From positions 868,001 through 932,000 of the forward strand of contig NZ_BSNN01000002.1 of assembly GCF_030160015.1 (NCBI RefSeq): a DNA stretch of 64,000 nt. Direction: 5' to 3'. Below, piece by piece: positions 23,020-36,740 of the stretch. This DNA comes from Amylibacter marinus. Its GTDB lineage: Bacteria; Pseudomonadota; Alphaproteobacteria; Rhodobacterales; Rhodobacteraceae. Positions within the stretch are counted from its first letter, which is position 1; the number at the start of each line of letters is the position of its first letter. The notes beneath the pieces were generated by a model. That model ran no database searches and was not told the origin of the DNA. It saw only the letters and a program-made list of their open reading frames with translations. Both the position numbers and the translations under genes were made by a program.

Positions 23020-24132
23020 ATGGGCCCGTTTCCACATAATGCTCCAAAGGCAACAATAAGCGCAGAAAACCCAGCCGGCACCGACGGCTTTGAGTTTGTA
23101 GAATTTGCCCATACAGAGCCAGAAAAGCTGGACGCAACCTTTCGCCAAATGGGATTTGCGCCCGTAGCCAAGCACAAGAGCAAGGACATCACCCTCTACC
23201 GTCAGGGCGACATCAACTATTTGCTCAACGCCGAGCCCGATAGCCAAGGCGCACAATTCGCGACCGAACACGGCCCCTGCGCCCCCGCCATGGCGTGGCG
23301 CGTGGTTGATGCACAGGTGGCGCTGAAACGCGCGTTAGACCTTGGGGCCACAGAATACACAGGCACCGGCAAATCATTGGATGTACCCGCCGTAATCGGC
23401 ATTGGCGGCTCTTTGTTGTATTTCGTGGATACATACGGCGAGGATGGCTCTTGCTATGATACACAGTATGATTGGATCGGCGAAGCCAACCCAAACCCCA
23501 CCGGATTTGGGTTTTATTATCTGGATCACCTGACGCATAATGTAATCCGTGGCAACATGGACACATGGTATAAATTCTACTCAGAAACCTTTAATTTCAA
23601 AGAGATCAAATTCTTTGACATCCAAGGGAAACATACAGGCCTGTTGTCACGTGCCCTTACATCACCTGATGGTAAAATTCGCATTCCGATCAACGAATCT
23701 ACTGATGATAAGTCCCAGATCGAGGAATACCTAAAGCGCTATAATGGCGAGGGCATTCAGCACATCGCAGTAGCATCCGAGGATATCTATAGCGCTACAG
23801 ATCGGATCGCAAATGCGGGCATGCGCTTTATGCCAAAGCCCCCCGCCACCTACTACGAGATGTCTCACGAACGGGTAACTGGCCACACAGAACCCCTTGA
23901 TCAGATGGAAAAACACGGCATTCTGATTGATGGCGAGGGTGTCTTGGGCGGCGGCGAAACCCGCATTCTGCTACAGATATTCTCTAAAACCGTTATCGGG
24001 CCAATCTTTTTCGAATTCATTCAGCGCAAGGGCGATGATGGGTTTGGCGAGGGCAATTTCCGCGCCCTATTTGAATCTATCGAGGCAGATCAAATCCGCC
24101 GCGGTGTACTAGAAGCAGAGCCCGCGGAATAA
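23020..24132 (+). CDS. hppD: 4-hydroxyphenylpyruvate dioxygenase
   Basis: 370 residues. Converts 4-hydroxyphenylpyruvate to homogentisate in tyrosine catabolism. The C-terminal vicinal-oxygen-chelate domain has the iron triad: His170 (YYLDHLTHN), His248 (GIQHIAVAS) and Glu332 (IFFEFIQRKG), with spacing close to characterised enzymes. The ATG follows AAAGGA. Later pathway genes (homogentisate dioxygenase and so on) are not in the window. Divergent from the Lrp-type regulator. Confidence 0.96.
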   Translation: MGPFPHNAPKATISAENPAGTDGFEFVEFAHTEPEKLDATFRQMGFAPVAKHKSKDITLYRQGDINYLLNAEPDSQGAQFATEHGPCAPAMAWRVVDAQVALKRALDLGATEYTGTGKSLDVPAVIGIGGSLLYFVDTYGEDGSCYDTQYDWIGEANPNPTGFGFYYLDHLTHNVIRGNMDTWYKFYSETFNFKEIKFFDIQGKHTGLLSRALTSPDGKIRIPINESTDDKSQIEEYLKRYNGEGIQHIAVASEDIYSATDRIANAGMRFMPKPPATYYEMSHERVTGHTEPLDQMEKHGILIDGEGVLGGGETRILLQIFSKTVIGPIFFEFIQRKGDDGFGEGNFRALFESIEADQIRRGVLEAEPAE

Positions 24133-24148
24133 ACGGCAGAATAAGCAC

Positions 24149-24170
24149 CGGGGCCGTTCACAGGGCCCCG
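24149..24170. terminator. GC-rich hairpin between convergent hppD and AAA ATPase genes
   Basis: CGGGGCC at 24149-24155 pairs with GGCCCCG at 24164-24170 around an 8-nt loop. It lies in the 42-bp gap between convergent genes, a typical place for a shared terminator, but no T-tract follows. Confidence 0.4.
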
Positions 24171-24174
24171 TAGC

Positions 24175-24999
24175 CTATAGCTTTATCCCCTTGCGCCCCG
24201 CAAGATCGGTAAAATACTGCCATGCAACCCGCCCAGATCGCGATCCGCGGGTTGCCTGCCACTCGATGGCCTCGGCGCGCAAATCCGCATCCGAAATCGA
24301 TACATTGAAATGATCGCAATAGCCGCGGATGATGCCCAAATAGGTATCCTGATCACAGGCATGGAACCCCAACCACAGACCAAAGCGATCGGACAAAGAA
24401 ACCTTCTCTTCTACTGCCTCAGATGGGTTTACCGCCGATCCGCGCTCGTTCTCGATCATATCGCGGGCCATCAAATGACGGCGATTAGAGGTGGCATAAA
24501 ACAGCACATTTTCTGGGCGCCCCTCTACCCCACCATCCAAAACCGCCTTCAGCGATTTATAGGCCGTATCATCATGATCAAAGCTTAGATCATCACAAAA
24601 CAACAAAAAACGCTCTGAAGAGGTGCGTAAAATATTCAAGAGCACCCCAATACTGTTCAGGTCTTCGCGCTGTATCTCGATCAGCTTAACCCCAGAAACA
24701 GCGGCGTGAACGGCCTTTACCAGCGATGATTTCCCCATGCCGCGCGCGCCCCATAGCAGGGCATTATTTGCCGGCAATCCAGCGGCAAATTGTGTGGTGT
24801 TTTTCAAGAGGGTATCGCGCGACCGCGTCACCCCCAACAACAGATCAAGGGGCACATGCGATACCCGTGGCACAGCAATCAGGGCCTCGGGTGCGGTTTG
24901 CCACAGATAGGCATCACAGGCGGTGAAGTCAGGGGCGGCCAAGGGGGCCGGGGCCAAGCGCTCCAGCGCCGATGCGATGCGCTCTAGGTGCTCGCTCAT
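24175..24999 (-). CDS. AAA ATPase of the DUF815 type
   Basis: 274 residues. Walker A is GARGMGKSSLVKA (about 103-115) and Walker B FLLFCDDLSFD (about 151-161). The segment YATSNRRHLMARDM and the arginine-bearing SDRFGLWLGFHACDQ match the DUF815 family of ATP-binding proteins, which lack an assigned function. The start overlaps the tatC stop by 4 nt, so it is cotranscribed with tatABC; this linkage is common in Rhodobacteraceae. Confidence 0.9.
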   Translation of the reverse strand: MSEHLERIASALERLAPAPLAAPDFTACDAYLWQTAPEALIAVPRVSHVPLDLLLGVTRSRDTLLKNTTQFAAGLPANNALLWGARGMGKSSLVKAVHAAVSGVKLIEIQREDLNSIGVLLNILRTSSERFLLFCDDLSFDHDDTAYKSLKAVLDGGVEGRPENVLFYATSNRRHLMARDMIENERGSAVNPSEAVEEKVSLSDRFGLWLGFHACDQDTYLGIIRGYCDHFNVSISDADLRAEAIEWQATRGSRSGRVAWQYFTDLAGRKGIKL

Positions 25000-25880
25000 T
25001 CTTCGCTCTCGAACTCATCATCATAATACCCATCAGCGCGCAATCGCGCCTCGCGTCGCTTGCCAACGAAGCTGACCAACTGAATCGAAACCTCGTACAA
25101 AAGATATACAACGCTAAACAGGATCAGCTGGGTAATCACATCAGGGGGTGTAACGATTGCGGCCAATATCAGAATGCCAACTACAGCGTATTTACGCATA
25201 TCCTTTAGGCCCTGCGCCGATACAATGTCCGCCATCCCCAGCAGGGTCAGCAGTACCGGCAACTGGAAACATAGGCCAAAGGCAAAGATGAATTTCAATG
25301 TGATATCCAGACTTTCCTTCACCGATCCCAAGAAGACCGTCTCTAATTTCTGGCTGGCAGCAGGATCAGCAATCTCGCCCACGTCCCCATTGCTCAACAA
25401 ATCCGTAATCGCGGGTAATACATCGCCAAAACCAATGAAAAACCGCATTGCCAACGGGGTAACCACATAATGCGCAAAGGATGCGCCAATGATAAACAAG
25501 ATAGGCGAGGCAATGATAAAGGGCAGGAAAGCCCCTTTTTCGTTCTGATACAGGCCCGGCGCCACAAAGCGCCACATCTGATGGGCAATCACAGGGAATG
25601 CCACAGCCAAGCCACCCAAAATAGAGATCCGGAAAAGCGTGAAAAACTTCTCTTGCGGGGCGGTAAAGATCAGCCGCGCATCTTGGCCGTTTTCCTCTAG
25701 GATACGGCGGATGGGGTCAAACAGAAACTCCAGCAAGGGTTCTGCCACCACAAACACCAATAACATCGCCACCACAAAGGCCGCGACAGAGCGGATCAAA
25801 CGGGTGCGCAGCTCTGCCAGATGCTCGATCAACGGTGCCGAGCTTTGCTCGATCGCCAGTTCTTCATCAATCTCACTCAT
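24996..25880 (-). CDS. tatC: Twin-arginine translocase subunit TatC
   Basis: 294 residues with six membrane helices. The N-terminal APLIEHLAELRTRLIRS carries the conserved cytoplasmic Glu used in twin-arginine recognition. TatC with TatB forms the receptor for folded Tat substrates. The loop between helices (about 140-185) is longer than in E. coli. Its first base overlaps the end of tatB; its stop overlaps the DUF815 gene. Confidence 0.97.
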   Translation of the reverse strand: MSEIDEELAIEQSSAPLIEHLAELRTRLIRSVAAFVVAMLLVFVVAEPLLEFLFDPIRRILEENGQDARLIFTAPQEKFFTLFRISILGGLAVAFPVIAHQMWRFVAPGLYQNEKGAFLPFIIASPILFIIGASFAHYVVTPLAMRFFIGFGDVLPAITDLLSNGDVGEIADPAASQKLETVFLGSVKESLDITLKFIFAFGLCFQLPVLLTLLGMADIVSAQGLKDMRKYAVVGILILAAIVTPPDVITQLILFSVVYLLYEVSIQLVSFVGKRREARLRADGYYDDEFESEE

Positions 25881-26338
25881 TAGGGTGCTTTCTTGGCCGC
25901 AGGTCTCTTGGCGGTTTTCTGTGCGGCAGGTTTTTTCGCCGGTGCTTTTTTGGCGGCGGGTTTCTTGGGTGCGGCCTTGTCGGCTGGTTTCTTCACCGCA
26001 GATGCCTTAGCCGCAGGCGCGCTAGTCTCTGCCTTTGGCGTGCCTGTTTCGATTTTGGCGCTGAAATCCGTAGCCCCCGGGGCAATATCATCCAGCCCCA
26101 GATCATCCAGCTGCATATCCTTAACATTGCTCACATCTTGGATAGATTTCTTCAGCTCGTTCACACCGGATTCATCCGCCGCATCATGCATCGCATTTTG
26201 AAAATCGCGTGCCATACCGCGGGCTTTGCCAACGAAATTTCCCACCTTGCGAAACATCATCGGCAAATCTTTGGGGCCCACAACGATCAGCGCCACAACG
26301 CCGACCACGACCATTTCAGACCATCCAATATCTAACAT
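25880..26338 (-). CDS. tatB: Twin-arginine translocase subunit TatB
   Basis: 152 residues. The N-terminus MLDIGWSEMVVVGVVALIVVGPKDLP is the canonical TatB helix with hinge, followed by an amphipathic helix (about 28-75). The last about 45 residues are Lys/Ala/Pro-rich (repeats like AAKKAPAKKP), a lineage-specific low-complexity tail. Receptor component with TatC. Confidence 0.96.
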   Translation of the reverse strand: MLDIGWSEMVVVGVVALIVVGPKDLPMMFRKVGNFVGKARGMARDFQNAMHDAADESGVNELKKSIQDVSNVKDMQLDDLGLDDIAPGATDFSAKIETGTPKAETSAPAAKASAVKKPADKAAPKKPAAKKAPAKKPAAQKTAKRPAAKKAP

Positions 26339-26350
26339 AAGTATACGAAC

Positions 26351-26593
26351 CTAGGAATTGGTCTTATCAGAATCAGGTGTCACATCTTTGGCAGCGTCGG
26401 CGGCATCATCAATCGAGGCGGTCAGCTCTTCTTTGCCCTCGTTCACACCTTTTTTGAACGCGGTGATACCTTTGCCTACTTCGCCCATCAGGTTGGTGAT
26501 CTTGCCACGCCCGAACAATACCAAAACGACCACGGCAATCACAAGCATACCCATTGGGCCAACATTCTGAATAAAAAGGGGCGTTACAATCAT
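26351..26593 (-). CDS. tatA: Twin-arginine translocase subunit TatA
   Basis: 80 residues from the ATG at 26593, which follows GGAGAA at good spacing; an open extension to 26650 is not needed. A short N-terminus precedes the single helix (GMLVIAVVVLVLFG) with the Phe-Gly hinge, then an amphipathic helix (GKITNLMGEVGKGITAFKKG) and an acidic tail. TatA oligomers form the translocation element. It lies 116 bp downstream of the nucleotidyltransferase of the accessory cluster. Confidence 0.95.
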   Translation of the reverse strand: MIVTPLFIQNVGPMGMLVIAVVVLVLFGRGKITNLMGEVGKGITAFKKGVNEGKEELTASIDDAADAAKDVTPDSDKTNS

Positions 26594-26709
26594 AAGGGTT
26601 CTCCATAATTCAGCGCAGCAAAAGGCCGCGATTACTTTCACTGCATACAATTAGATACTTTTAGCCAAAGTTCAAATCCTAAAAACGGCTCTGCCCTCAT
26701 TCCCCACGC

Positions 26710-27819
26710 TTATTTGTCAGAAAAAAGCCGCGCCCACAGATATCGGAGCTGAACCAGAACAACAAAACGCATAGGAAACTTGGTGCCCATACGCAAACAG
26801 GCCATCATCGGGTTTGGCCAGCGATGTACCAGTTGTGCGCCTATTGACGATGGGCGTTGGCGAATGATCGCCTTCAGTGGTTTGCGGTCATGGTACTGCG
26901 TAAATGATTTTGACCAATCGCGCAGTACGACCCGCCTTGCCCATTTGGGGGGTGGTACCACGACACCCGCCGGCACGCGGCGCATATCTGCCCCAAGCAA
27001 CTGTTGTGCCAACCCCAGACACACCCCGATCCAGTTGCGCAGTGTCGCATCCCCTTGTAGACACAATTCCCAGTTAAAATCTGCGGGTAGGTTTTCAACA
27101 AAGGCCGCAATATCAACCAACCAAACCGCCCGCCAGAACCCGTGGCGTAGCCCATGCAGGCAAGCCAAGCGCAGCAAATGCTCGGCCCCCATCACCGGCA
27201 CCTGTGCGCCCGCAATTTCCATATGCCCCGCATGAGCAAAAACCGCATTTAAATCCGGCAGATGAAATTTATCCAAATTCTCGTGCAGATCAACCTTGCT
27301 CATATGCGCTGGATACTGCCAATCCAACGTTACCACGATGTTATTGCGATCAAAGGGGAAATCAGGATTGTCCCGTGCAAAGGATTGCGGCACCAAAACA
27401 TCCAAAACAGCCGCCATCTGCGCGGGGCGCACCAGAATATCGATATCGCCATACCCCCGACAAGCCGCGTCACCATAGTAGCGCGACAGGCTCGCCCCTT
27501 TAAACAACAGATGTTCGATGCCAGCCTCACGTAACATCTGGGAAACCTCTGCAATAGCATGGCCCGAAACCGCATTGTTCAGCACCGCAGATTTAAATCC
27601 CTGTTGCATCTGTGCATACTGTGCCAGATCCTTGCGCGCCTGACAGCGCTGATACAACATCCCCCCACCGCCAACAGAGGCAAGGTTTGGATAAATCTTC
27701 GAAAGGGTAGCATCTGGTAGATCACAAACCGCTGGATCAGAGCGCCACGCCCCCATAAGCGCCTGTGCCGCCAAAGCGCCTAACTTTTGCCCATTAGCCA
27801 CTTTGGTCGATTTGGGCAT
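26710..27819 (-). CDS. Nucleotidyltransferase-family protein (NTP_transf_5 type) of the peptide cluster
   Basis: 369 residues from the ATG at 27819, which follows CTGGAA; this start overlaps the end of the kinase gene by 26 nt, suggesting coupled translation. The nucleotidyltransferase core is LLFKGASLSRYYGD (about 105-117) followed by RGYGDIDILV (121-130), with Asp125 and Asp127 as likely metal ligands. The rest is mostly helical with Trp/Arg-rich C-terminus. Related enzymes occur in lasso-peptide clusters together with HprK-like kinases, where one has been linked to sugar addition on a phosphorylated peptide. The substrate here is unknown; the neighbouring Cys-rich protein is the obvious candidate. 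Confidence 0.82.
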   Translation of the reverse strand: MPKSTKVANGQKLGALAAQALMGAWRSDPAVCDLPDATLSKIYPNLASVGGGGMLYQRCQARKDLAQYAQMQQGFKSAVLNNAVSGHAIAEVSQMLREAGIEHLLFKGASLSRYYGDAACRGYGDIDILVRPAQMAAVLDVLVPQSFARDNPDFPFDRNNIVVTLDWQYPAHMSKVDLHENLDKFHLPDLNAVFAHAGHMEIAGAQVPVMGAEHLLRLACLHGLRHGFWRAVWLVDIAAFVENLPADFNWELCLQGDATLRNWIGVCLGLAQQLLGADMRRVPAGVVVPPPKWARRVVLRDWSKSFTQYHDRKPLKAIIRQRPSSIGAQLVHRWPNPMMACLRMGTKFPMRFVVLVQLRYLWARLFSDK

Positions 27820-28705
27820 CAAGCAATTCCAGAATTCGTGCCGCATCTTTGGCGGCATCACTACGTTGGGTGCAAATTACTGGGGCCAGATCCGTATGGG
27901 CCTGAAGGGCATTCATGGTCTCTGCTGGACGCAAACGCCCACCAACACAATTGTCCAGCATTCCCATAATAGCCTCGCCCTGATCCATGACCCGCGGCGC
28001 CCATTCAGCCCCCTGTTCATAGGCGCACAACACCACCAATCCTGGCCGAGCAGATACCGCACGCTCTGCGCCAAACTCTGCGATATCCAAATCTACCTGT
28101 GGCGCTGTGGGGTTTGCGCGCATAGACAAGGGTTTGTACCACGGGGTAACAGTCCCCTCTTGATCAAGAATGGCATATTCATCGGATAGATACCGCGCGC
28201 CAGCGCGCAGCAACTCGCTGACAAGGGTGCTCTTGCCGGCCAAGCTACGCCCTGGCAAAACAATCGCGTGCCCGCGCCATTCCACTGCACCTGCATGAAT
28301 AAAAATCCCCGCGCTGGACATAAACCCAATGCTTAACGATACCCATGCCTGAAAGCGATCCAGCGCCTCTTCCATGCGAAAGCTGCGGCCCTGAAGGGTA
28401 TGATTCTGATACACCAGATTGTAATGACGTGTGCGGGTCTTTGGGTCTTTGCCCCCCTTTACGAAGGACATGATTGTTTCAAATTCTGTGCCATCATAGG
28501 GTTTCGCAGCCGTTGGCATCAGCGCCCGCAACTGATCAAACATCTCTGGATCATTGGCCCGCACCCCCAGACGCACACCATGGGATTGCACCCCAAACCC
28601 GTCGTGCCATTCCAAATCATTTAGGTTGTCAAAACAGGGCGTATGCCAGCGCTCGAGTAAATGATACCGTGTGGTGTCGATCGGTTTTAGGGTCTGATTT
28701 TCCAT
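27794..28705 (-). CDS. HprK-related kinase (HprK-rel-A-like) of the peptide cluster
   Basis: 303 residues. The C-terminal half resembles the HPr kinase/phosphorylase catalytic domain: FIHAGAVEWRGHAIVLPG followed by P-loop GRSLAGKST (152-160), and YLSDEYAIL (172-180), where HprK has Ser-Asp-Asp. The N-terminal 120 residues are unlike HprK. No HPr or PTS genes are nearby, and the gene follows a PqqD-domain protein, the setting of the HprK-related kinase A group. Such kinases phosphorylate Ser or other hydroxyl groups of modified peptides in some lasso clusters. Target and activity here are inferred. Confidence 0.85.
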   Translation of the reverse strand: MENQTLKPIDTTRYHLLERWHTPCFDNLNDLEWHDGFGVQSHGVRLGVRANDPEMFDQLRALMPTAAKPYDGTEFETIMSFVKGGKDPKTRTRHYNLVYQNHTLQGRSFRMEEALDRFQAWVSLSIGFMSSAGIFIHAGAVEWRGHAIVLPGRSLAGKSTLVSELLRAGARYLSDEYAILDQEGTVTPWYKPLSMRANPTAPQVDLDIAEFGAERAVSARPGLVVLCAYEQGAEWAPRVMDQGEAIMGMLDNCVGGRLRPAETMNALQAHTDLAPVICTQRSDAAKDAARILELLDAQIDQSG

Positions 28706-28832
28706 AGCACACTCTAACTAGGTTTACGCGCAGAGGTAAAAGAGCCACATCGCTGTGCCAAAATATCAATGCAGAACATTGGAAATCAAACACACAGATC
28801 TATCGAGCAAACGGTTTGTGTTCCAGCCGCGC

Positions 28833-28852
28833 AAAATTGATCACAGATCAAT
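28833..28852 (-). terminator. Weak attenuator-like hairpin after the Cys-rich precursor gene
   Basis: On the minus strand, directly after the stop codon of the PqqD-fusion gene, ATTGATC and GATCAAT form a 7-bp stem with a 3-nt loop, followed by TTTG. The stem is short and AT-rich, so partial termination is the most that can be proposed. It would make more precursor than kinase mRNA. Confidence 0.35.
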
Positions 28853-29331
28853 CACGCCCCCCCCCCTGGAAACGATGTACATACGCCACCCAAACAAATG
28901 CTGTCAGGATCACAACAATCCGCAACAGATGCACAGCCAAAGACGCCATCCCCAATACAGCTCATGGCCTGTGCCGCTGCGGGTACAGCCATGCTTAGAA
29001 CACTGGGCGCTGCGATGGCCGCCACACGTGCGCCACCGATCAACTGGCCAAAGACTTCGCGCCGAGTTGGCCCCGCAGATATAAATTCCTGTTGCAACAA
29101 ACCAGCCTGACCGATTTGGCCCAAGGCCACCTCTACGCTGGCCATATCTTGGGCAAGGCTCTGTTCCAAGATTGCATCCACATCATGGGCCCCATCGCAT
29201 AAATCCCAAACCGACCCGGCCACAGCATTCAGGCAGGTTGCCGAATGGTTGTCCAGATCATAGATCATGGTTTCATCTTTCAACTTTTTTACGATAACAC
29301 CTTCGGTGCGGTGCGCTGGATAAATGCTCAT
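28852..29331 (-). CDS. PqqD-domain protein with Tat-like segment and six-cysteine knottin-like tail (candidate peptide precursor)
   Basis: 159 residues from the ATG at 29331, which follows AAGGGG; an upstream extension to 29433 has no ribosome site. Residues about 8-85 match the PqqD fold (GVIVKKLKDETMIYDLD, LNAVAGSVWDLCDG), the small winged-helix domain that binds RiPP leader peptides. Residues 89-94 read TRREVF, then a hydrophobic stretch to 122 ending AAAQA, like a twin-arginine signal with an Ala-x-Ala site. The last 37 residues hold Cys125, 133, 139, 140, 146 and 151, spaced C-x7-C-x5-CC-x5-C-x4-C, and end FPGGGA. I read it as a fused chaperone and precursor; function is not established. 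Confidence 0.85.
   Translation of the reverse strand: MSIYPAHRTEGVIVKKLKDETMIYDLDNHSATCLNAVAGSVWDLCDGAHDVDAILEQSLAQDMASVEVALGQIGQAGLLQQEFISAGPTRREVFGQLIGGARVAAIAAPSVLSMAVPAAAQAMSCIGDGVFGCASVADCCDPDSICLGGVCTSFPGGGA
28857..28866 (-). repeat. Ten-base G homopolymer at the 3' end of the Cys-rich precursor gene
   Basis: Ten consecutive C on the plus strand encode Gly-Gly-Gly plus the first base of the final Ala codon. A one-base slip would change the C-terminus: loss of one G gives Arg-Asp then stop, gain of one gives a short Val-Ile-Asp-Leu extension. Such tracts can be hypermutable, and are also prone to sequencing error. Confidence 0.9.
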
Positions 29332-29448
29332 TGGAAATCCCCTTTTACCATGGAGGAATAGATAGCATTTTAGAAAAAATTTCAAGCGATCTAGACGCGA
29401 CAGCGCCAAAAAACACCAATTATCGCAAGCCAAGGTAAAATGAGTTGG

Positions 29449-29730
29449 TTAAATACCCCGGATTTTGCTGCTGTTTGCAGGTTTTTGCACCTGTGTTCCA
29501 GGAAACTTAGTGCTGTGCGCGCTCATAAACAATCCATCCAAATCATAATGTAGGCCAAATAGATTTGCTTTCTCATTCACATCTTTTTTAAGGGTGCGCT
29601 TGGCCTGACGGCGCGCCCAAAAACCGGCCATCCCACCTTGACCTGCATAGGTCTTATTTATTCTTTTGATTTTCTCCAGATTTTCGGCATGAAATTTTTG
29701 AAAATCTTCTTCGGTATTTATCCCAAACAT
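29449..29730 (-). CDS. Hypothetical 93-aa protein upstream of the Cys-rich precursor
   Basis: Not recognised. The ATG at 29730 is preceded by a GGGGG ribosome site at 5-nt spacing. The protein is charged, mostly helical at first (EEDFQKFHAENLEKIKRINK), then has a Gly-rich turn and a basic patch (FWARRQAKRTLKKD); it has no Cys and no membrane segment. It lies in a markedly AT-rich stretch, 117 bp upstream of the PqqD-fusion gene and on the same strand, so it may be the first gene of that cluster. It could instead be an unrelated small gene. Confidence 0.6.
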   Translation of the reverse strand: MFGINTEEDFQKFHAENLEKIKRINKTYAGQGGMAGFWARRQAKRTLKKDVNEKANLFGLHYDLDGLFMSAHSTKFPGTQVQKPANSSKIRGI

Positions 29731-29784
29731 TAAACCCCCGTATAAGCAAATTGTAACAATATATTTTAGGCACGAACCCAGATT

Positions 29785-29813
29785 AATGGCGAATAGATAT
29801 ATGTAATTGTCAA
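29785..29813 (-). promoter_or_regulatory. Candidate sigma-70 promoter for the peptide cluster
   Basis: The AT-rich gap 29731-29873 contains a perfect TTGACA on the minus strand at 29808-29813. The region 17 nt downstream (GCCATT, extending into TAAT) is only a weak match to a -10 box, as is common in this group. It is placed correctly to drive the genes from 29730 leftwards. Confidence 0.3.
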
Positions 29814-29873
29814 AATTCGCAAATAATTAGCTAGAAATTGCACGATTATCTTAATGAACGGTTAATATTCAAC

Positions 29874-30962
29874 CTAAGGGGCAGGACACGCAAAAACAAA
29901 ACATCTATCGCGACGTACAGACAGCCATAATGGCGTCCCCGGCTTGGGTAAAAACACCCCGGGTACCAATACATGCATCAGCACATCCTCGTAATCCATC
30001 GCAAATTCGACCAACGAGTTATGCCCAACGAATCGCGCACGCTCGACCACACCGCGCGCAGGGCTGCCCTCTTGCTGAGTGGGATTCGGGCCACGCCCAG
30101 CGCGATCAAAATCGATTTTTAGGTGCTGCGGGCGGATCACAATTTCTACTTCTGTGCCATTCTCCATGCCCGGGGTCAAAAACGCCCCAAAGGGCGTATT
30201 GGTTAGCGCCCCATCAACACGCCCTGAGATGACATTAACATCCGAGAAAAATTCCGCCGCCTTGCGATCCACTGGTGCGTGATAAATATTATACGGCGCA
30301 CCCACCTGCACAATGCGACCTCGACGCATTAGCGCGATCTGATCTGCCATGCGCATGGCCTCTTCGGGCTCGTGGGTCACCAACAGCACCGCTGTGCCCT
30401 CTTCGCGGAGCATATCCAACGTGCTGTCGCGCACCGCATCACGCAGGCGGTTATCCAAGCCAGAAAACGGCTCGTCCATCAACAAAACCTTGGGGCTGGG
30501 AGCCAATGCACGGGCAAGCGCCACACGCTGTTGCTCGCCACCCGACAGCTGATGCGGATAGGCGGATGCAAATTTCTGCATGCCGACGCGCTCTAACATC
30601 CGGCGCACTCGCGCGGCCTTGACGTTCTTGTCCCCTGTCAGACCAAAGCCCACATTCTGGGCCACATCCAAATGCGGGAACAATGCGAAATCCTGAAACA
30701 TCAGGCCGATACCGCGCTTTTCCGGGGGAAGATGATGCGTGGCGTCGGAAACACAGCCCCCCGCCACATAAACCGCGCCCGCGTCTTGCTGATCGACCCC
30801 GGCCGCTATGCGCAATGTTGTAGACTTTCCGCATCCTGACGGCCCCAGCAGACATGTAACCTCACCCGCGTTCAAAGTCAGGCTTAGTTCATCAACCACG
30901 CGCCGCCGATCAAAGCTGCGCGAAATTTGCCGAAGCTCTAGTTGTGTTTCAGGATCCGCCAC
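29874..30962 (-). CDS. ABC transporter ATP-binding protein, PotA/FbpC-like, without partner permease nearby
   Basis: 362 residues. Walker A GPSGCGKST (about 39-47), Q-loop MFQDFALFPHLD, signature LSGGEQQRVALARAL, Walker B VLLMDEPFSGLD and switch His in LVTHEPEEAMRMAD. The C-terminal about 120 residues form a TOBE-type regulatory domain, as in importers of iron(III), thiamine, polyamine or phosphonate type. No binding protein or permease gene lies on either side, so it is orphaned here. Substrate cannot be named. Confidence 0.88.
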   Translation of the reverse strand: MADPETQLELRQISRSFDRRRVVDELSLTLNAGEVTCLLGPSGCGKSTTLRIAAGVDQQDAGAVYVAGGCVSDATHHLPPEKRGIGLMFQDFALFPHLDVAQNVGFGLTGDKNVKAARVRRMLERVGMQKFASAYPHQLSGGEQQRVALARALAPSPKVLLMDEPFSGLDNRLRDAVRDSTLDMLREEGTAVLLVTHEPEEAMRMADQIALMRRGRIVQVGAPYNIYHAPVDRKAAEFFSDVNVISGRVDGALTNTPFGAFLTPGMENGTEVEIVIRPQHLKIDFDRAGRGPNPTQQEGSPARGVVERARFVGHNSLVEFAMDYEDVLMHVLVPGVFLPKPGTPLWLSVRRDRCFVFACPAP

Positions 30963-31046
30963 GCGTACCTATCCAAGTAAATCAATCAGGTTTGCGTCGC
31001 CATAACAGCCTATGCGCAAAATGCCAAGCATTCTGCGCACTGTTCC

Positions 31047-32444
31047 CTAGGCCCGAGATGATCTACCTTGTTGCATAGCACCTATGATACAAGCGGCAAA
31101 CCCGATCGCCAGCACATAAATGCAAATGCTGAGCAACTGGTCATATTTGTGAGCACCGCTGATTATCTCGGATACAAATTCAACCCCGCGATACATATAG
31201 GCCATAGCCCCGACGATCGCCGCGGCCCACGCCACCAAATAGGACCAAAGAGGCAAACGATAGCCCATAAAAGACACCGCCATCACTGGCGTCAAGAACA
31301 TGCTGGCAGTTCCAGTTACAGCCACCGCATCAAACAGGGTCTTGTTTGGGAACAATGTTAGCAATAGCCCCCCCAGCATAAAGGCCACCATAACCCAGCG
31401 CCCATTTTTAACACTACGCCCTAGCGCCCCAACCTCATCCACCACCAAGCGCGCAGCGGATGCCAAGGCGCTGTCTAATGTAGAAACAGCCGAAACCAAG
31501 AGCGATGCCATCAGCAGGAAATATACGCCACTGCCAAACATCCCCTGCCATGTACCCAAAATCTGGTTTTCATATTCCGCCCCAATCAGCCCAGCCTGAA
31601 TCCCAAACAGACCAAAGCCCATGATGCAAATCACAGATAGTACAAACGCCCAAACGAAGCTCTGCTTGGTGCGCGCAGGTGAGGCGATGAATCCTCGGTC
31701 CATCATCACCGGATCATGGGCGGGATAGGACAAGACCTGCAACAAGGCCACCACCACCAATACCCAGCCGGGGCGCGCCCCCTGATCGTGCACACCCTGT
31801 GCGGAGAAAACGGCGCTAAAGGAAAAATCAGCACTGCTAATCATAACGCCAAGTGCCACGGCGAAGACCCCCAAGAAAACCACCATCTGTAAGACATCGG
31901 TTTTAAGGCTGGCCAACAACCCTCCCCGGGCCGAATACAGCAGGCCAATCAGGGCCAAGGCAATGATTGATACGGTCTTTGCGACCGCGACCTCTGGAAA
32001 AGCCGCTGAAAAAATAAGCCCCACAACAATAAGGTTTGCAAAAACCTCTGACAACAAACGCAATCCGACTACCAGATTATAGGTTATATGCCCGGTCACA
32101 CCGAAACGCGCGCCCAGCCATTCCTGTACCGATCCGGCATTGTCCTGCCGCAGTCGTGCAACAATATAACCGCCAGTCAAAAAGCTTAGATAATAGGCCG
32201 TATAGGCCAAGGTACCGGCAAATCCGTAAAAGTACCCCAAAATGGCGGAATTCATCAGCGAGCGTGCGAAAATCCATGTGGTAACCTGACTAAGAACCAG
32301 CGTTAGAAGCGCTGGTTCGTGGCCCAAAGACGCCCCTGAGAAGAACCCCTCGACGCTAGCCTGCCCACGCGACAGGGCCAAGCTTCCCAAGCTAATAAGC
32401 GCAACAAAACCAACCAAGGCCCATGGGCTTGCTAATATTTCCAT
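31047..32444 (-). CDS. Sodium:solute symporter family protein
   Basis: 465 residues with about 13 hydrophobic segments, fitting the SSS fold. Characteristic stretches are WIFARSLMNSAILGYFYGFAG near TM1-2 and the sodium-site region SLLVSAVSTLDSALASAARLVVDEV (split here about 325-350). Members import proline, pantothenate, sugars, urea or organic acids with sodium; the substrate is not evident. It stands alone between the ABC ATPase and the Hint-domain gene. Confidence 0.88.
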   Translation of the reverse strand: MEILASPWALVGFVALISLGSLALSRGQASVEGFFSGASLGHEPALLTLVLSQVTTWIFARSLMNSAILGYFYGFAGTLAYTAYYLSFLTGGYIVARLRQDNAGSVQEWLGARFGVTGHITYNLVVGLRLLSEVFANLIVVGLIFSAAFPEVAVAKTVSIIALALIGLLYSARGGLLASLKTDVLQMVVFLGVFAVALGVMISSADFSFSAVFSAQGVHDQGARPGWVLVVVALLQVLSYPAHDPVMMDRGFIASPARTKQSFVWAFVLSVICIMGFGLFGIQAGLIGAEYENQILGTWQGMFGSGVYFLLMASLLVSAVSTLDSALASAARLVVDEVGALGRSVKNGRWVMVAFMLGGLLLTLFPNKTLFDAVAVTGTASMFLTPVMAVSFMGYRLPLWSYLVAWAAAIVGAMAYMYRGVEFVSEIISGAHKYDQLLSICIYVLAIGFAACIIGAMQQGRSSRA

Positions 32445-32517
32445 TTGATATCCCCTTACTTTTGCAAGGGTTTAACAAGAAACCAGCAAAATCAAACTAA
32501 CAGTTTTGTGAGGCCCG

Positions 32518-33654
32518 CTAAACTTCAAGAATACAGCTCTCTTTTACAGATAGGGATAGGCGTGCAGATGGGCCAAAACTTTCGCAATTATAGGCGAGAT
32601 CGGGGAAAAGAGTTAATACCTCTGTGCGGGCCGCATCATCTAAACCAGCCACCGACATATCTCCAGGCTGGAAACTCTCTGTGATCAACCCATCAGATGT
32701 GATCAATTGGTGCTGATCAAACAAAATGTGAATGTATTCCACCTGATCTACCTGCCAATCAACCTGTATACTGGTCTCGTTCAACAAACCCTTGGCAGGA
32801 GCCAACACTTGCATCTGCGCAAAGGCCAATTGCGTCATCGTATTCTCGATCATAATTCGATGCTGAGGCGAAACCAACATATCGCGGCGCGGCATTCCCG
32901 GGCCAAAGCTGTGTGCAGAAATGCGAACGGGGCGTAGATTGGGTTGTGCACGCAATCGCGAGCCTTCCAGTTTTTTATGCCCGATCCAGCGAATTTTCTG
33001 AAGGCCATTGTCCACAGTTTGAACAAAGTCTCCCACGTTCAGTGCCTCTACAGGTATCCCACCGCGGGGTGTATCGATCAAGGTTCCGGGTGTAAAACAA
33101 ACCACATCAAAGGACATATCAGTAATGCCGATGATCCCCGCGCTGTCATCCACAGGCCCGTTGCTCATAGTGATGATCAGGCTGGCAACTGGCCCAGCGA
33201 AAGAGACGAATACAGAATCATCTTCGCCGGATCCGTTAAACGCCGTCTCAGCGTTACCTGAGGCATTGACCGTATAAGTGTTCCCCGAAACCGAGGTATT
33301 TTGATAAGTTCCATCGACACTGGTGAATATAACCGCCACTGGGTTTCCGGCCAGATCAAAGGCCTGAATGTTGACCTCATCCGACCAACCGCCAGGGTTG
33401 CCATCCAAATCCATAATTTCGAAGGTTAGATTTTCGACATCCTCACCGAAACTTACATCCATTCCTTCTGGCACACCATCCTGCGCGCCTTGGCTATAAA
33501 CAAAACCGCTGGTGTTGAAGGTGCCGTTTGTGTCCGCGAAAAAAGTCATATCCGTCGTGGATACCGTAACCGTTGCGTCATGACCGCTTGCGGCATCCGT
33601 TACGGTGTTTGTCCCACCAGTTTCAAAAACTGTCCAATCCAATATCGCAACCAT
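32518..33654 (-). CDS. Hint-domain protein with N-terminal beta-rich domain
   Basis: 378 residues, no signal peptide. The N-terminal half (1-180) is Gly/Asp/Thr/Val-rich and beta-like. The Hint domain starts at CFTPGTLIDTPRGGIPVEAL (about 184-203) with an N-terminal Cys as in hedgehog/intein modules, continues QTVDNGLQKIRWIGHKKL, and includes LVSPQHRIMIEN. Proteins of this type are abundant in Rhodobacteraceae, often secreted by type I systems, with unknown function; autoprocessing at the Cys is plausible. The ATG follows GGAGAGCCC. Confidence 0.88.
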   Translation of the reverse strand: MVAILDWTVFETGGTNTVTDAASGHDATVTVSTTDMTFFADTNGTFNTSGFVYSQGAQDGVPEGMDVSFGEDVENLTFEIMDLDGNPGGWSDEVNIQAFDLAGNPVAVIFTSVDGTYQNTSVSGNTYTVNASGNAETAFNGSGEDDSVFVSFAGPVASLIITMSNGPVDDSAGIIGITDMSFDVVCFTPGTLIDTPRGGIPVEALNVGDFVQTVDNGLQKIRWIGHKKLEGSRLRAQPNLRPVRISAHSFGPGMPRRDMLVSPQHRIMIENTMTQLAFAQMQVLAPAKGLLNETSIQVDWQVDQVEYIHILFDQHQLITSDGLITESFQPGDMSVAGLDDAARTEVLTLFPDLAYNCESFGPSARLSLSVKESCILEV

Positions 33655-33843
33655 AGGGCTCTCCTTGTTCTCAATACATTTGGGCCATTTCTAATATAGG
33701 CACACCTGCATATCATTTAAGAATGCTAGCAAAATATCTTGCATTTTAATGTTCATCCATCATTAGCTATTTTCCTAAACAATCAGGCGCAACTAAGGTG
33801 CAAATGAGTCGATTATGGCTCAATTGAAAATTCAGGAGCCAAA

Positions 33844-34152
33844 ATGCCCGTTTTCCTAATACCGCGTGAAATCGCGCAAAACCACGCTCAGGCGCTAGAC
33901 GCCCTGCAGAACAGCGATGCCCTACAGCTACGTGACCCCGCGGATTTCCATATGACCCCGATGTATACCCCCGCCGATATGAAGGAATTTGGAATTAAGG
34001 ATCAACTTTCGTGGTTCGCCGTGGTCAAAGATGCAAAAAAATGGACAGATGCCCTACCTGAAACGGAAAACGCGCGGCGCAATTACCGCGCCCTGAATAA
34101 TCCCAAGGCTTTGGCGCGGATCGATCCATGGTATCAGGCCGCCCAAGACTAG
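33844..34152 (+). CDS. Hypothetical 102-aa protein
   Basis: Not recognised. The ATG is preceded by AGGAG at 6-nt spacing, which supports expression. The protein is soluble, with no signal or membrane helix, rich in Asp, Asn, Ala and Pro; motifs such as YTPADMKEFGIKDQLSWFAVV and Trp residues suggest a small folded domain. It stands alone, convergent with the SDR gene 25 bp away. Confidence 0.7.
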   Translation: MPVFLIPREIAQNHAQALDALQNSDALQLRDPADFHMTPMYTPADMKEFGIKDQLSWFAVVKDAKKWTDALPETENARRNYRALNNPKALARIDPWYQAAQD

Positions 34153-34177
34153 CAACGCCGCTGTGCATTGGCGCTAT

Positions 34178-34954
34178 CTATATCGTCGCCGAGATATACC
34201 CGCCATCCAGCAGAACATTTTGTCCGACAATAAAGCCCGCATGCTGGCTACATAAAAACGCACAAGTGTTGCCAAACTCCTCAACAGTACCATAGCGACC
34301 CGCTGGTATTGTCTCGCAGCGCGCGGCCTTGGCCTCGGCGACTGAAATATCAGCCTTCTCCGCGGCCGCCACATCCAATGATTCTGATCGGTTGGTGCTG
34401 TGCAGCCCGGGCAACAGATTATTTATGGTCACTCCGTGCTTGGCCACATCTCGACTGGTACCCGCAACATATCCTGTAAGCCCCGCGCGGGCAGAATTGC
34501 TTAGCCCAAGGATAGAACTAGGGCCCTTTACGAACTGGCTGGTGATATTCACCACACGGCCCCATTTGTTCTCTATCATACCGGGCAACAGTGCCTTCAT
34601 CAGCATAATCGGGGTTAGCATATTGCTGTCAATCGCGCTTATAAAATCCGTGCGTTCCCAATCCGACCAATGCCCAGGGGGCGGCCCACCGGCATTGGTA
34701 ACCAAAATATCCACCTGCCCCGCAGCATCCAAAACCGCGGTGCGTCCATCATCCGTGGTGACATCCCCTGCCACCGCAGTGACTGAAACGCCATGTTGTT
34801 CCAGAGCCTGACGCGCCTGTTCCAGCGGCCCTGAACTGCGCGCACAGATCACCAAATCAACTCCGGCCTTTGCCAGGGCCTGTGCACAACCAAACCCCAA
34901 CCCCTGAGACGAGGCCGATACCAACGCCCGCTTGCCGGCAATTCCTAAATCCAT
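34178..34954 (-). CDS. SDR-family protein lacking the usual Tyr-x3-Lys
   Basis: 258 residues with the Rossmann fold of short-chain dehydrogenases. The dinucleotide site reads VSASSQGLGFGCAQAL (about 12-27) and NAG occurs at about 88-90. The Ser region is VVNITSQ, but where classical members have Tyr-x3-Lys this protein has LSNSARAGLTGYVAG, so the usual catalytic pair is not in place. A subgroup of SDR proteins shares this SNSARAGLTG pattern. Activity cannot be assumed. Divergent from prfC over 178 bp. Confidence 0.88.
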   Translation of the reverse strand: MDLGIAGKRALVSASSQGLGFGCAQALAKAGVDLVICARSSGPLEQARQALEQHGVSVTAVAGDVTTDDGRTAVLDAAGQVDILVTNAGGPPPGHWSDWERTDFISAIDSNMLTPIMLMKALLPGMIENKWGRVVNITSQFVKGPSSILGLSNSARAGLTGYVAGTSRDVAKHGVTINNLLPGLHSTNRSESLDVAAAEKADISVAEAKAARCETIPAGRYGTVEEFGNTCAFLCSQHAGFIVGQNVLLDGGYISATI

Positions 34955-35132
34955 TGCAATCTTCCCATATTATAGCTGCCAATCACGCCACAATACCCTT
35001 AATCACACCGTGCTGCATAGGTGCAATTGCACCGACGCCCGAATTCCCGGCGCGCCAAGGTTTTTCATGCCTCCATACGCTATTGCCTCCGCCTTGCTTG
35101 CGCTTTATCCCTTCGCGCCCTATAGAACCCAC

Positions 35133-36740
35133 ATGTTAGATACAGAGCAAAATTCCCCCGTCCTGCCACCCGAGATTGATCGGCGCCGCACCTTCGCGAT
35201 TATCAGCCACCCCGATGCCGGTAAAACCACATTGACGGAAAAATTCTTGCTCTATGGTGGTGCCATTCAGATGGCCGGCCAGGTGCGCGCCAAGGGCCAG
35301 GCCCGCAACACGCGTTCAGATTTTATGCAGATGGAAAAAGATCGTGGAATTTCCGTATCGGCCTCCGCCATGTCCTTTGAGTTTCGCAATTTTTGGTTCA
35401 ACCTTGTTGATACTCCGGGTCACTCGGATTTTTCCGAAGATACCTATCGCACACTGACCGCTGTTGATGCTGCGGTTATGGTCATTGACGGTGCCAAAGG
35501 GATCGAAAGCCAGACCCGCAAGCTGTTCGAGGTGTGCCGAATGCGCGACATGCCAATCCTGACCTTTTGTAACAAAATGGATCGCGAAAGCCGCGATACA
35601 TTTGAAATAATTGACGAAATCCAAGAAAACCTTGCCATTGATGTCTGCCCCGCCAGTTGGCCCATTGGTGTTGGTCGCGATTTTCTGGGTTGCTATGATC
35701 TGTTAAATGACCGCCTAGAATTGATGGATCGCGCTGATCGAAATGTGGTGGGTGAAAGTGTTGAAATCAACGGGCTAGATGATCCGAAACTGGCCGAACA
35801 TGTGCCTGCTGAATTGCTGGAGCAATTCCTAGAAGAGGTCGAAATGGCCCGCGAATTGATGCCTAGTTTTGACCACCAAGCCTTTCTTGACGGCACACTT
35901 ACCCCGATCTGGTTTGGATCTGCGATCAATTCTTTCGGGGTTCAGGAACTGATGGATGGTATCGGTAATTTTGGCCCCAAGCCACAGGTTCGACCAGCCG
36001 ATACGCGCCCAATTGCGCCAGACGAACCCAAAGTCACAGGATTTGTATTCAAAGTTCAGGCCAATATGGATCCAAAACACCGCGACCGCATCGCTTTTGT
36101 GCGCCTGTGTTCTGGTCACTTTAGACGCGGCATGAAACTGACCCATGTAAGGACCAAAAAACCCATGGCAATCGCTTCGCCCATGCTGTTTTTGGCCAGT
36201 GATCGGGAACTGGCCGAGGAAGCATGGGCCGGTGATATCATTGGCATTCCAAACCATGGGCAATTGCGTATCGGTGATGCCCTAACCGAGGGCGAACAGC
36301 TGCGCTTTGCGGGCATCCCTTCCTTTGCCCCTGAGTTATTACAGTCGGTGCGTTCGACTGATCCAATGAAGGCCAAACATCTGGACAAGGCCCTAAATCA
36401 ATTCGCCGAAGAGGGGGCCGCCAAATTGTTTAAACCAGTCATCGGCGCTGGCTGGGTGATCGGCGTTGTCGGCGCCCTTCAGTTCGAGGTACTGGCCTCG
36501 CGCATCGAATTGGAATATGGCATCCCCGTGCGCTTTGAACCTTCCCAATTCACTTCGGCACGCTGGCTGACCGGCCCACAGGAAGATGTGGATAAATTCA
36601 TCGATATTAACAAGGGTCATATGGCGCTGGATCATGATGGTGATCCGGTATTCATGACCCGCCTGCAATGGGATATAGACCGCGTAGAGCGCGACTACCC
36701 CGCCCTATCCCTAAGCGCCACCAAGGAAATCCTGAGTTAA
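35133..36740 (+). CDS. prfC: Peptide chain release factor 3
   Basis: 535 residues from the ATG at 35133, the normal size for RF3; the open frame extends upstream to 34932 but gives no family-like sequence. It is a translational GTPase that recycles RF1/RF2 after termination. GTPase motifs: ISHPDAGKTTLTEK (about 27-40), DTPGHSDF and NKMDRE. The later region RSTDPMKAKHLDKALNQFAEEGAAKLF is typical of RF3. Confidence 0.96.
   Translation: MLDTEQNSPVLPPEIDRRRTFAIISHPDAGKTTLTEKFLLYGGAIQMAGQVRAKGQARNTRSDFMQMEKDRGISVSASAMSFEFRNFWFNLVDTPGHSDFSEDTYRTLTAVDAAVMVIDGAKGIESQTRKLFEVCRMRDMPILTFCNKMDRESRDTFEIIDEIQENLAIDVCPASWPIGVGRDFLGCYDLLNDRLELMDRADRNVVGESVEINGLDDPKLAEHVPAELLEQFLEEVEMARELMPSFDHQAFLDGTLTPIWFGSAINSFGVQELMDGIGNFGPKPQVRPADTRPIAPDEPKVTGFVFKVQANMDPKHRDRIAFVRLCSGHFRRGMKLTHVRTKKPMAIASPMLFLASDRELAEEAWAGDIIGIPNHGQLRIGDALTEGEQLRFAGIPSFAPELLQSVRSTDPMKAKHLDKALNQFAEEGAAKLFKPVIGAGWVIGVVGALQFEVLASRIELEYGIPVRFEPSQFTSARWLTGPQEDVDKFIDINKGHMALDHDGDPVFMTRLQWDIDRVERDYPALSLSATKEILS

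Follow-up and report, generated by a model that had tools for sequence, protein, structure and literature searches.

A PqqD-type domain, a twin-arginine-like segment and a six-cysteine tail in one chain: a putative precursor of an exported peptide in Amylibacter marinus

Described systems and the precursor gene

In the pathways of ribosomally synthesized and post-translationally modified peptides (RiPPs), RiPP recognition elements (RREs) bind leaders and deliver substrates to enzymes (PMC7470986 and PMC5067487). We describe here a gene in which an element of this kind is part of the same chain as its presumed product. The gene lies at 28852-29331, on the minus strand, of a 64,000-nucleotide stretch of Amylibacter marinus DNA (contig NZ_BSNN01000002.1; hereafter, the window), and encodes 159 amino acids (aa) that join a PqqD/RRE domain, a twin-arginine segment and a tail with six cysteines. 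We consider it probable, at roughly 0.6, that the protein is the precursor of a small exported and probably disulfide-knotted peptide, the folded PqqD/RRE domain acting as its leader in cis.

The B1 proteins of lasso peptide clusters (TbiB1, PadeB1) share the PqqD/RRE fold with the window protein, TbiB1 being its best solved match, but B1 and the precursor that it binds are two separate proteins, whereas here the export segment and the tail reside in the same chain. The HprK-like kinase PadeK, the kinases ThcoK and PsmK, and the nucleotidyltransferase homologue PsmN offer a second parallel, namely a kinase and a nucleotidyltransferase-like gene beside a PqqD-type domain. According to PMC9266682, some lasso clusters encode both a tailoring kinase and a homologue of nucleotidyltransferases, the kinases phosphorylate the C-terminal Ser of the precursor, and PsmN is required for the hexoses found on the phosphorylated residue; the substrate is there a separate lasso precursor, whereas the presumed substrate here is the PqqD chain itself. 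A lasso cluster was also considered for the window and rejected, as neither a B2 protease nor an AsnB-like cyclase was seen among the open reading frames (ORFs) of 24000-36000 (by eye, with ten ORFs profile-scanned). More broadly, RRE-dependent RiPPs combine a conserved leader with a hypervariable core, as do the tandem copies found at three of our loci, but in those RiPPs the RRE is separate from the precursor.

The HPr-rel-A system (TIGR04352 kinase, TIGR04353 PqqD protein) and the SynChlorMet protein ScmD (TIGR04248) belong to the same superfamilies, and the PqqD part of the window protein matches TIGR04248 weakly. However, the window falls far below the curated cut-offs (60.2 versus 200 for TIGR04352; 18.8 versus 100 for TIGR04248), and TIGR04353 gave no match to the window protein at E<=1. 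Internal twin-arginine translocation (Tat) signals are known, though behind transmembrane helices (PMC5449189 and PMC13186574): in actinobacterial Rieske proteins such as Sco2149, a twin-arginine segment likewise lies inside the chain, but transmembrane helices precede it, whereas a soluble folded domain does so here (PMC5449189). Finally, the inhibitor cystine knot peptides (knottins) of animals and plants resemble the window peptide in six-cysteine order, predicted hairpin, size, and profile and fold matches, but the window peptide is bacterial and sits behind a PqqD leader; the likeness is probably convergent. Judged by these comparisons, the parts are known and the whole looks like an RRE-dependent peptide system, while a single chain that unites the recognition domain with an export signal and the product, over many phyla, appears to be new. 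No PqqD-Tat or PqqD-knottin protein was described in the titles and abstract openings that searches of open-licence literature returned, and among the NCBIfam and Pfam models listed for these proteins, none spans domain, twin-arginine segment and tail. There is a fair chance that the architecture deserves a class of its own.

The gene and its parts are the following:

28852-29331, minus strand: gene for the PqqD, twin-arginine segment and six-cysteine tail chain, 159 aa plus stop (ORF list, translation, PF05402 match)
29086-29331, minus strand: PqqD/RRE-like domain, residues 1-82 (PF05402, 24.6 bits; AlphaFold2 (AF2) predicted local distance difference test (pLDDT) 93-97 by blocks over residues 1-80; Foldseek match to TbiB1, 5v1v, E 6.4e-4)
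28966-29067, minus strand: twin-arginine signal-like segment, residues 89-122 (T-R-R-E-V-F, hydrophobic stretch, A-Q-A at 120-122)
28855-28965, minus strand: presumed released peptide, residues 123-159 (C-x7-C-x5-CC-x5-C-x4-C; AF2 models; Foldseek)
29338-29343, minus strand: AGGGGA, ribosome-binding-site-like, upstream of the ATG (by eye)

A sequence-only reading of this DNA had pointed to the PqqD part, to TRREVF at residues 89-94, to a hydrophobic stretch ending at A122 and to the cysteine spacing given above, and all these landmarks are present as it described. The PF05402 match covers residues 20-61 and is just above the curated cut-off of 23.4 bits. The tail cysteines are C125, C133, C139, C140, C146 and C151; at the 0.99% Cys content of the long ORFs around the gene, at least six cysteines within 37 residues would occur with P ~1.6e-6, and when the tail was shuffled the six-cysteine order was retained in 139 of 20000 shuffles. 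Two other readings of the region were set aside: the plus strand of 28852-29331 contains stops, and a longer frame from a TTG at 29433 was rated less likely than the ATG at 29331, which has AGGGGA before it. The coding strand also carries a run of ten G at 28857-28866, near the 3' end of the gene and past the last Cys codon; it is the sole run of at least nine G or C in the window, and slippage there might change the C-terminus only.

AF2, given the window protein and a 39-row alignment, predicted the PqqD part as a three-stranded sheet (residues 12-16, 21-25 and 30-34) plus three helices (36-44, 51-57 and 63-75), and Foldseek returned the leader-bound lasso RRE TbiB1 as its best match. Residues 101-118 had pLDDT values mostly below 50. 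In the tail, values rose to 91-93 for residues 131-150, with flanks at 75-77, and a beta-hairpin was predicted with strands 144-147 and 150-153; a tail-only model, made with 16 sibling tails, gave the same hairpin at a mean pLDDT of 80.5, a secondary structure that is consistent with the I-IV, II-V, III-VI disulfide knot of knottins. In agreement with the sequence-only reading, the tail is thus predicted to be knottin-like in both models and to lie apart from the PqqD fold, a low-confidence link standing between them. Of the ten top Foldseek matches for the tail, most were knottin-type peptides (best template modelling scores 0.61/0.69, root-mean-square deviation 1.4 A over 31 columns). In addition, a profile of 17 tails, drawn from 21 tails with the inhibitor cystine knot order (alignment A5), matched 39 chains among the PDB sequences at E up to 1, with a best value of 5e-4; most of them bear names that we take to be those of cystine-knot peptides, the exceptions including beta-defensin and Dickkopf. 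These likenesses concern the cysteine framework and the predicted fold, and no common descent or toxicity is claimed from them.

A conserved leader with a divergent tail

A search of 100 related genomes returned nothing for the window protein at E<=0.001, and patterns built from this sequence alone found no relatives in the genome contigs. Relatives were reached through the neighbouring HprK-related kinase: an alignment of four kinases was searched against the genome contigs, and the best 80 of 132 relatives were used. A profile of four PqqD proteins, which included the RR segment and hence favours RR, was then applied to 84 loci and returned 65 ORFs. Removal of two duplicates (L048, L049) and of three further ORFs, namely L112 (no clear signal past its TRR), L145_7535 (cut by a contig end) and L121_6552 (no PqqD part), left 60 members: 58 in the 80 kinase loci, the window protein, and a further relative carried on a Gemmatirosa kalamazoonensis plasmid. 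Overall, 53 of the 80 kinase loci contain the 58 genes of PqqD, twin-arginine and variable-tail type. The distance to the kinase is at most 300 bp in 45 of these 53 loci and at most 2 kb in 49, with a median of 73 bp and a maximum of 4356 bp. The members come from Acidobacteria, Gemmatimonadetes, Chloroflexi, Cyanobacteria (Okeania, Nostoc), Armatimonadetes, Rokubacteria, Calditrichota and other phyla, as well as from a planctomycete (Aquisphaera), Myxococcales and other Proteobacteria. Closer to the host, the four-member profile gave at least eight weak matches in 384 other genomes of the class (E 5.9e-5 to 1e-3; at most nine candidates were scored per genome, and members may be missed), and a survey with the Pfam PqqD model in 292 genomes of the order yielded two relatives, whose PqqD proteins are identical to those of the Limibaculum sediminis and Thermohalobaculum xanthum loci.

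Ordinary PqqD proteins served as a control. Among 21 other PqqD-like ORFs (20 distinct; 48 loci of the same order), inspected by eye, none had an RR, a hydrophobic segment and a tail past the domain; in two of them the domain itself ends with an RR. The two further PqqD genes of the host genome, which are among these controls, are of the ordinary short kind. Downstream of one of them (L053:4101-7280) are a small ORF and an AsnB-like ORF (by eye), probably a lasso-type set. The other (L054:701-7953) lies near an AsnB-like ORF on a 44.6-kb contig, perhaps a plasmid, that also carries ParA/RepB-like ORFs (by eye).

Conservation was assessed in an alignment of 50 of the 60 members (A3), ten paralogues or odd-tailed members being left out; for a second alignment (A4), 39 of these were re-trimmed, low-Cys members and L068 being left out. 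PF05402 matches all 50 at E<=0.05, and TIGR04353 and TIGR04248 match 20 and 38 of them at E<=0.01. L34, R90 and R91 are the only invariant columns, and the expectation that the RR would be conserved among homologues was thereby borne out in 50 of 50, albeit with a profile that contained it. Ser or Thr stands at position 113 in all 50 and at position 124 in 44, the latter being seen in several Cys-free tails as well, and P117 is kept in 49. Mean information was 2.52 bits for the PqqD domain, 2.64 for the RR segment, 2.39 for the hydrophobic part and 1.91 for the tail, while residues 109-122, at 2.85 bits, form the best conserved segment, above the PqqD domain. Within the tail, Cys columns averaged 3.6 bits versus 1.4 for the others, a contrast that the Cys-guided aligner favours.

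Tandem copies were compared at three loci. The leaders of the Okeania copies (L122) are identical at 132 of 135 positions (98%) and their tails at 15%; in Nostoc (L150) the values are 135 of 136 (99%) and 42%, but this tail is of low complexity; in Rhodothermia (L145) the leaders share 69-80% and the tails 18-39%. At the sequence level, a nearly constant leader with a diverging tail is what precursors of fast-changing products usually show.

The strong conservation of residues 109-122 is also what an anchor or a specific contact might display, and the hydrophobic segment could then stay uncut in a membrane-anchored protein, which would keep its PqqD domain inside the cell, expose a Cys-rich knob on the outside and serve as a sensor or docking platform. 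Tiny tails, of 7 residues in L141 and 8 in L136, would suit such a protein. We regard it as unlikely, however, since the A-x-A at 120-122 is mostly kept (A120 in 43 of 50, A122 in 44 of 50) and the tandem copies diverge right past it while their leaders remain nearly identical, as expected if the tail is released.

The tails themselves were counted in 58 members, the window and Gemmatirosa included; L082 and L126 were left out, as the script found no cut, and in L113 it cut ahead of the signal, the Cys count being unaffected. At least four cysteines are present in 45 tails and at least six in 40; of the 49 Cys-bearing tails, 46 have an even number. The C-C-CC-C-C order with knottin-like loops occurs in 23 of the 58, whereas 1000 rounds of shuffling gave it in 0.66 tails on average and in 5 at most. 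These counts are not to be taken as probabilities because related sequences are not independent. Adding eight further Rhodothermia tails, five of them odd, and three additional Acidobacteria copies, which come from two genomes and are all even, with four partial rows left out, gives even parity in 52 of 60. Some tails carry eight or more cysteines, and those of L152 and L157 are well over 100 residues long. Cysteine is absent, for example, from the Thr-rich tails of Nostoc (L150, L154) and from a Chloroflexi tail with a Thr/Pro repeat (L149). In the two Nostoc loci (L150:5829-7818 and L154), the PqqD-RR leader precedes a Thr-rich tail of low complexity, and in L150 a 2OG-Fe(II) oxygenase gene comes next. 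One Rhodothermia genome (G736; L208-L213 and L145) has 16 profile matches, some partial, and its tails are rich in Ser, Asp and Cys, often with odd Cys numbers; they could be heavily phosphorylated.

Overall, the earlier proposal stands in part: one chain does hold the domain, an export-signal-like segment and a separate tail, and six cysteines in a knottin arrangement describe the cargo of the window protein, but not the only type of cargo, given the tails with eight or more cysteines, the Thr/Pro repeats and the longer tails. The checks that it had put forward for the most part favour it, the conserved cysteines and variable linkers being seen in the column averages.

Contrary evidence and other explanations

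Several results weigh against the view of the protein as the precursor of a knotted peptide exported by Tat. As to the family, the phyla rest on record titles, many loci being metagenome-assembled, and no PqqD ORF was found in the available DNA of 26 of the 80 kinase loci, some of them cut by contig ends; the kinase may therefore have other partners. On the other side, a PqqD-only profile, applied to the remaining 27 kinase loci, found L112 as the sole PqqD ORF, and it too has TRR, though no clear signal after it. As to the cargo, 9 of the 58 tails have no Cys and 5 of the 8 further Rhodothermia tails have odd Cys numbers, and the tail is therefore not always a knottin. The Foldseek E-values of the window tail were 1.0 or worse, AF2 may favour known Cys patterns, and Pfam found no family in this tail; 7 of 8 sibling tails matched Pfam knot-peptide or toxin families, UPF0506 or Dickkopf, all below the curated cut-offs, and the eighth had no Pfam match. 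No tail Ser or Thr conserved in every member was found among the 50 aligned. As to the signal, it is unusual for a Tat signal to begin as late as residue 89, with a folded, soluble domain ahead of it, Tat signal profiles gave no match to the window protein in the NCBIfam and Pfam scans, and they match few homologues (TIGR01409 in 4 of 50, PF10518 in 3 of 50).

These few profile matches also fit a segment that is recognised not by Tat but by Sec, or by a dedicated protease or exporter specific for the LPxVxSIVAP motif, the RR being kept for another reason. The conservation of P109, S/T113 and P117 seems to go beyond what Tat needs, and a single-sequence search of 84 loci with the TatA, TatB and TatC of the window yielded no Tat gene. 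Still, we hold this explanation to be improbable. The window protein, whose RR at 90-91 is behind the folded domain and not N-terminal, has the whole Tat layout of S/T-R-R motif, hydrophobic region and A-x-A site; among the aligned members, Ser or Thr precedes the RR at position 89 in 47 of 50, R or K is common at 95-96, and L152 exceeds the PF10518 cut-off (27.0 versus 22.7 bits).

Tat often serves proteins that fold or acquire cofactors in the cytoplasm. The tail could on these grounds be a metal-binding or redox-active peptide, or one with thioethers, loaded or modified by the kinase and the transferase before Tat export, as the Ser-Asp-Cys repeats of Rhodothermia, with odd numbers and little likeness to knottins, and the MauE and thioredoxin-like neighbours would allow, but the even Cys numbers, the frequent C-C-CC-C-C order and the knottin-like prediction make this quite improbable. 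The neighbours in question are MauE-type proteins that adjoin the cassette in L068 and L122, with a common C-terminal part that is weakly AhpC/TSA-like in L122, and an AhpC/TSA thioredoxin-like domain within the kinase ORF of L121; for a knotted peptide, they are a hint of disulfide handling outside.

Neighbouring genes, proposed pathway and origin of the cassette

The precursor gene is followed on the same strand by the genes below, on which, as on the strand itself, the sequence-only reading had been silent:

27794-28705, minus strand: HprK-related kinase-like gene, 303 aa (TIGR04352, 60.2 bits, cut-off 200; Walker A GRSLAGKST and SDE motif by eye; kinase alignment)
26710-27861, minus strand: NTP_transf_5 nucleotidyltransferase-like gene, 383 aa (PF14907, 107.9 bits, cut-off 31.2; start uncertain)
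26351-26650, minus strand: tatA (TIGR01411, 54.7 bits, cut-off 53.9)
25880-26338, minus strand: tatB (TIGR01410, 78.7 bits, cut-off 56.5)
24996-25880, minus strand: tatC (TIGR00945, 194.1 bits, cut-off 132.7)

A gap of 146 nucleotides (nt) separates the precursor and kinase genes, the kinase and NTP_transf_5 genes overlap by 68 nt, and tatA starts 59 nt past the latter. Thus, two genes for candidate modification enzymes adjoin the precursor gene, and the host possesses TatABC genes (24996-26650) directly downstream of the cassette.

Together, these elements suggest the following pathway. The chain would be made and its RRE domain folded in the cytoplasm, where the HprK-like kinase and the NTP_transf_5 enzyme would dock on the domain and phosphorylate, then perhaps nucleotidylate or glycosylate, a Ser or Thr of the chain; S/T124, adjoining the AxA of the signal, and the Ser and Thr of the tail are candidates. 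Recruitment of both enzymes by the PqqD domain in cis is inferred because a lasso-like enzyme pair adjoins an RRE fused to its apparent substrate. TatBC would then recognise the internal twin-arginine segment, the tail crossing the membrane while the PqqD domain remains inside, and Tat does fit a cargo modified in the cytoplasm. Signal peptidase would cleave after A-Q-A (122), and the 37-residue tail would form three disulfides in a knottin-like arrangement, to act outside the cell on competitors, proteases or surfaces.

A wider proposal, which we rate just short of an even chance, is that the family represents an undescribed class spanning phyla, in which the PqqD/RRE domain recruits the HprK-like kinase and NTP_transf_5 in cis and a hypervariable cargo, most commonly a cystine knot, is modified before Tat export; it would be a bacterial counterpart of the design of venom precursors, with their conserved leader and fast-changing knot. 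If true, this would be a new biosynthetic logic, with recognition domain and substrate in one chain and Tat as the exporter; it would mean that gene-encoded knottins can be sourced widely, from many bacterial phyla, and that HprK-like kinases and NTP_transf_5 proteins of unknown role have a likely physiological substrate. The conserved signal eases the finding of further members, and the cargo would be easy to study.

The position of the cassette was compared with the tat region of five genomes of the same genus, in three of which tatA was called as an ORF. In all five, the interval from the ABC ATPase gene to the tat genes either is too short for the cassette or shows no trace of it, and the cassette is therefore a lineage-specific insertion in the host genome (2.72 Mb, 14 contigs). 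In one of the five, a homologue of a 93-aa gene of the window lies between the ABC ATPase and tat genes. By eye, tatA seemingly retains its own upstream sequence. Because none of the 84 scanned loci yielded a Tat gene, the adjacency of cassette and tat genes may be due to chance.

Two further observations concern genes outside the cassette proper. In L128:1156-4593, a 1146-aa Peptidase_C25 protein adjoins a six-Cys member and might be a processing protease; the single-linkage cluster of large ORFs to which it belongs extends over 6 loci, of which that of L128 was scanned. In the window itself, an ORF at 32518-33654, on the minus strand, has a Hint-like motif (by eye).
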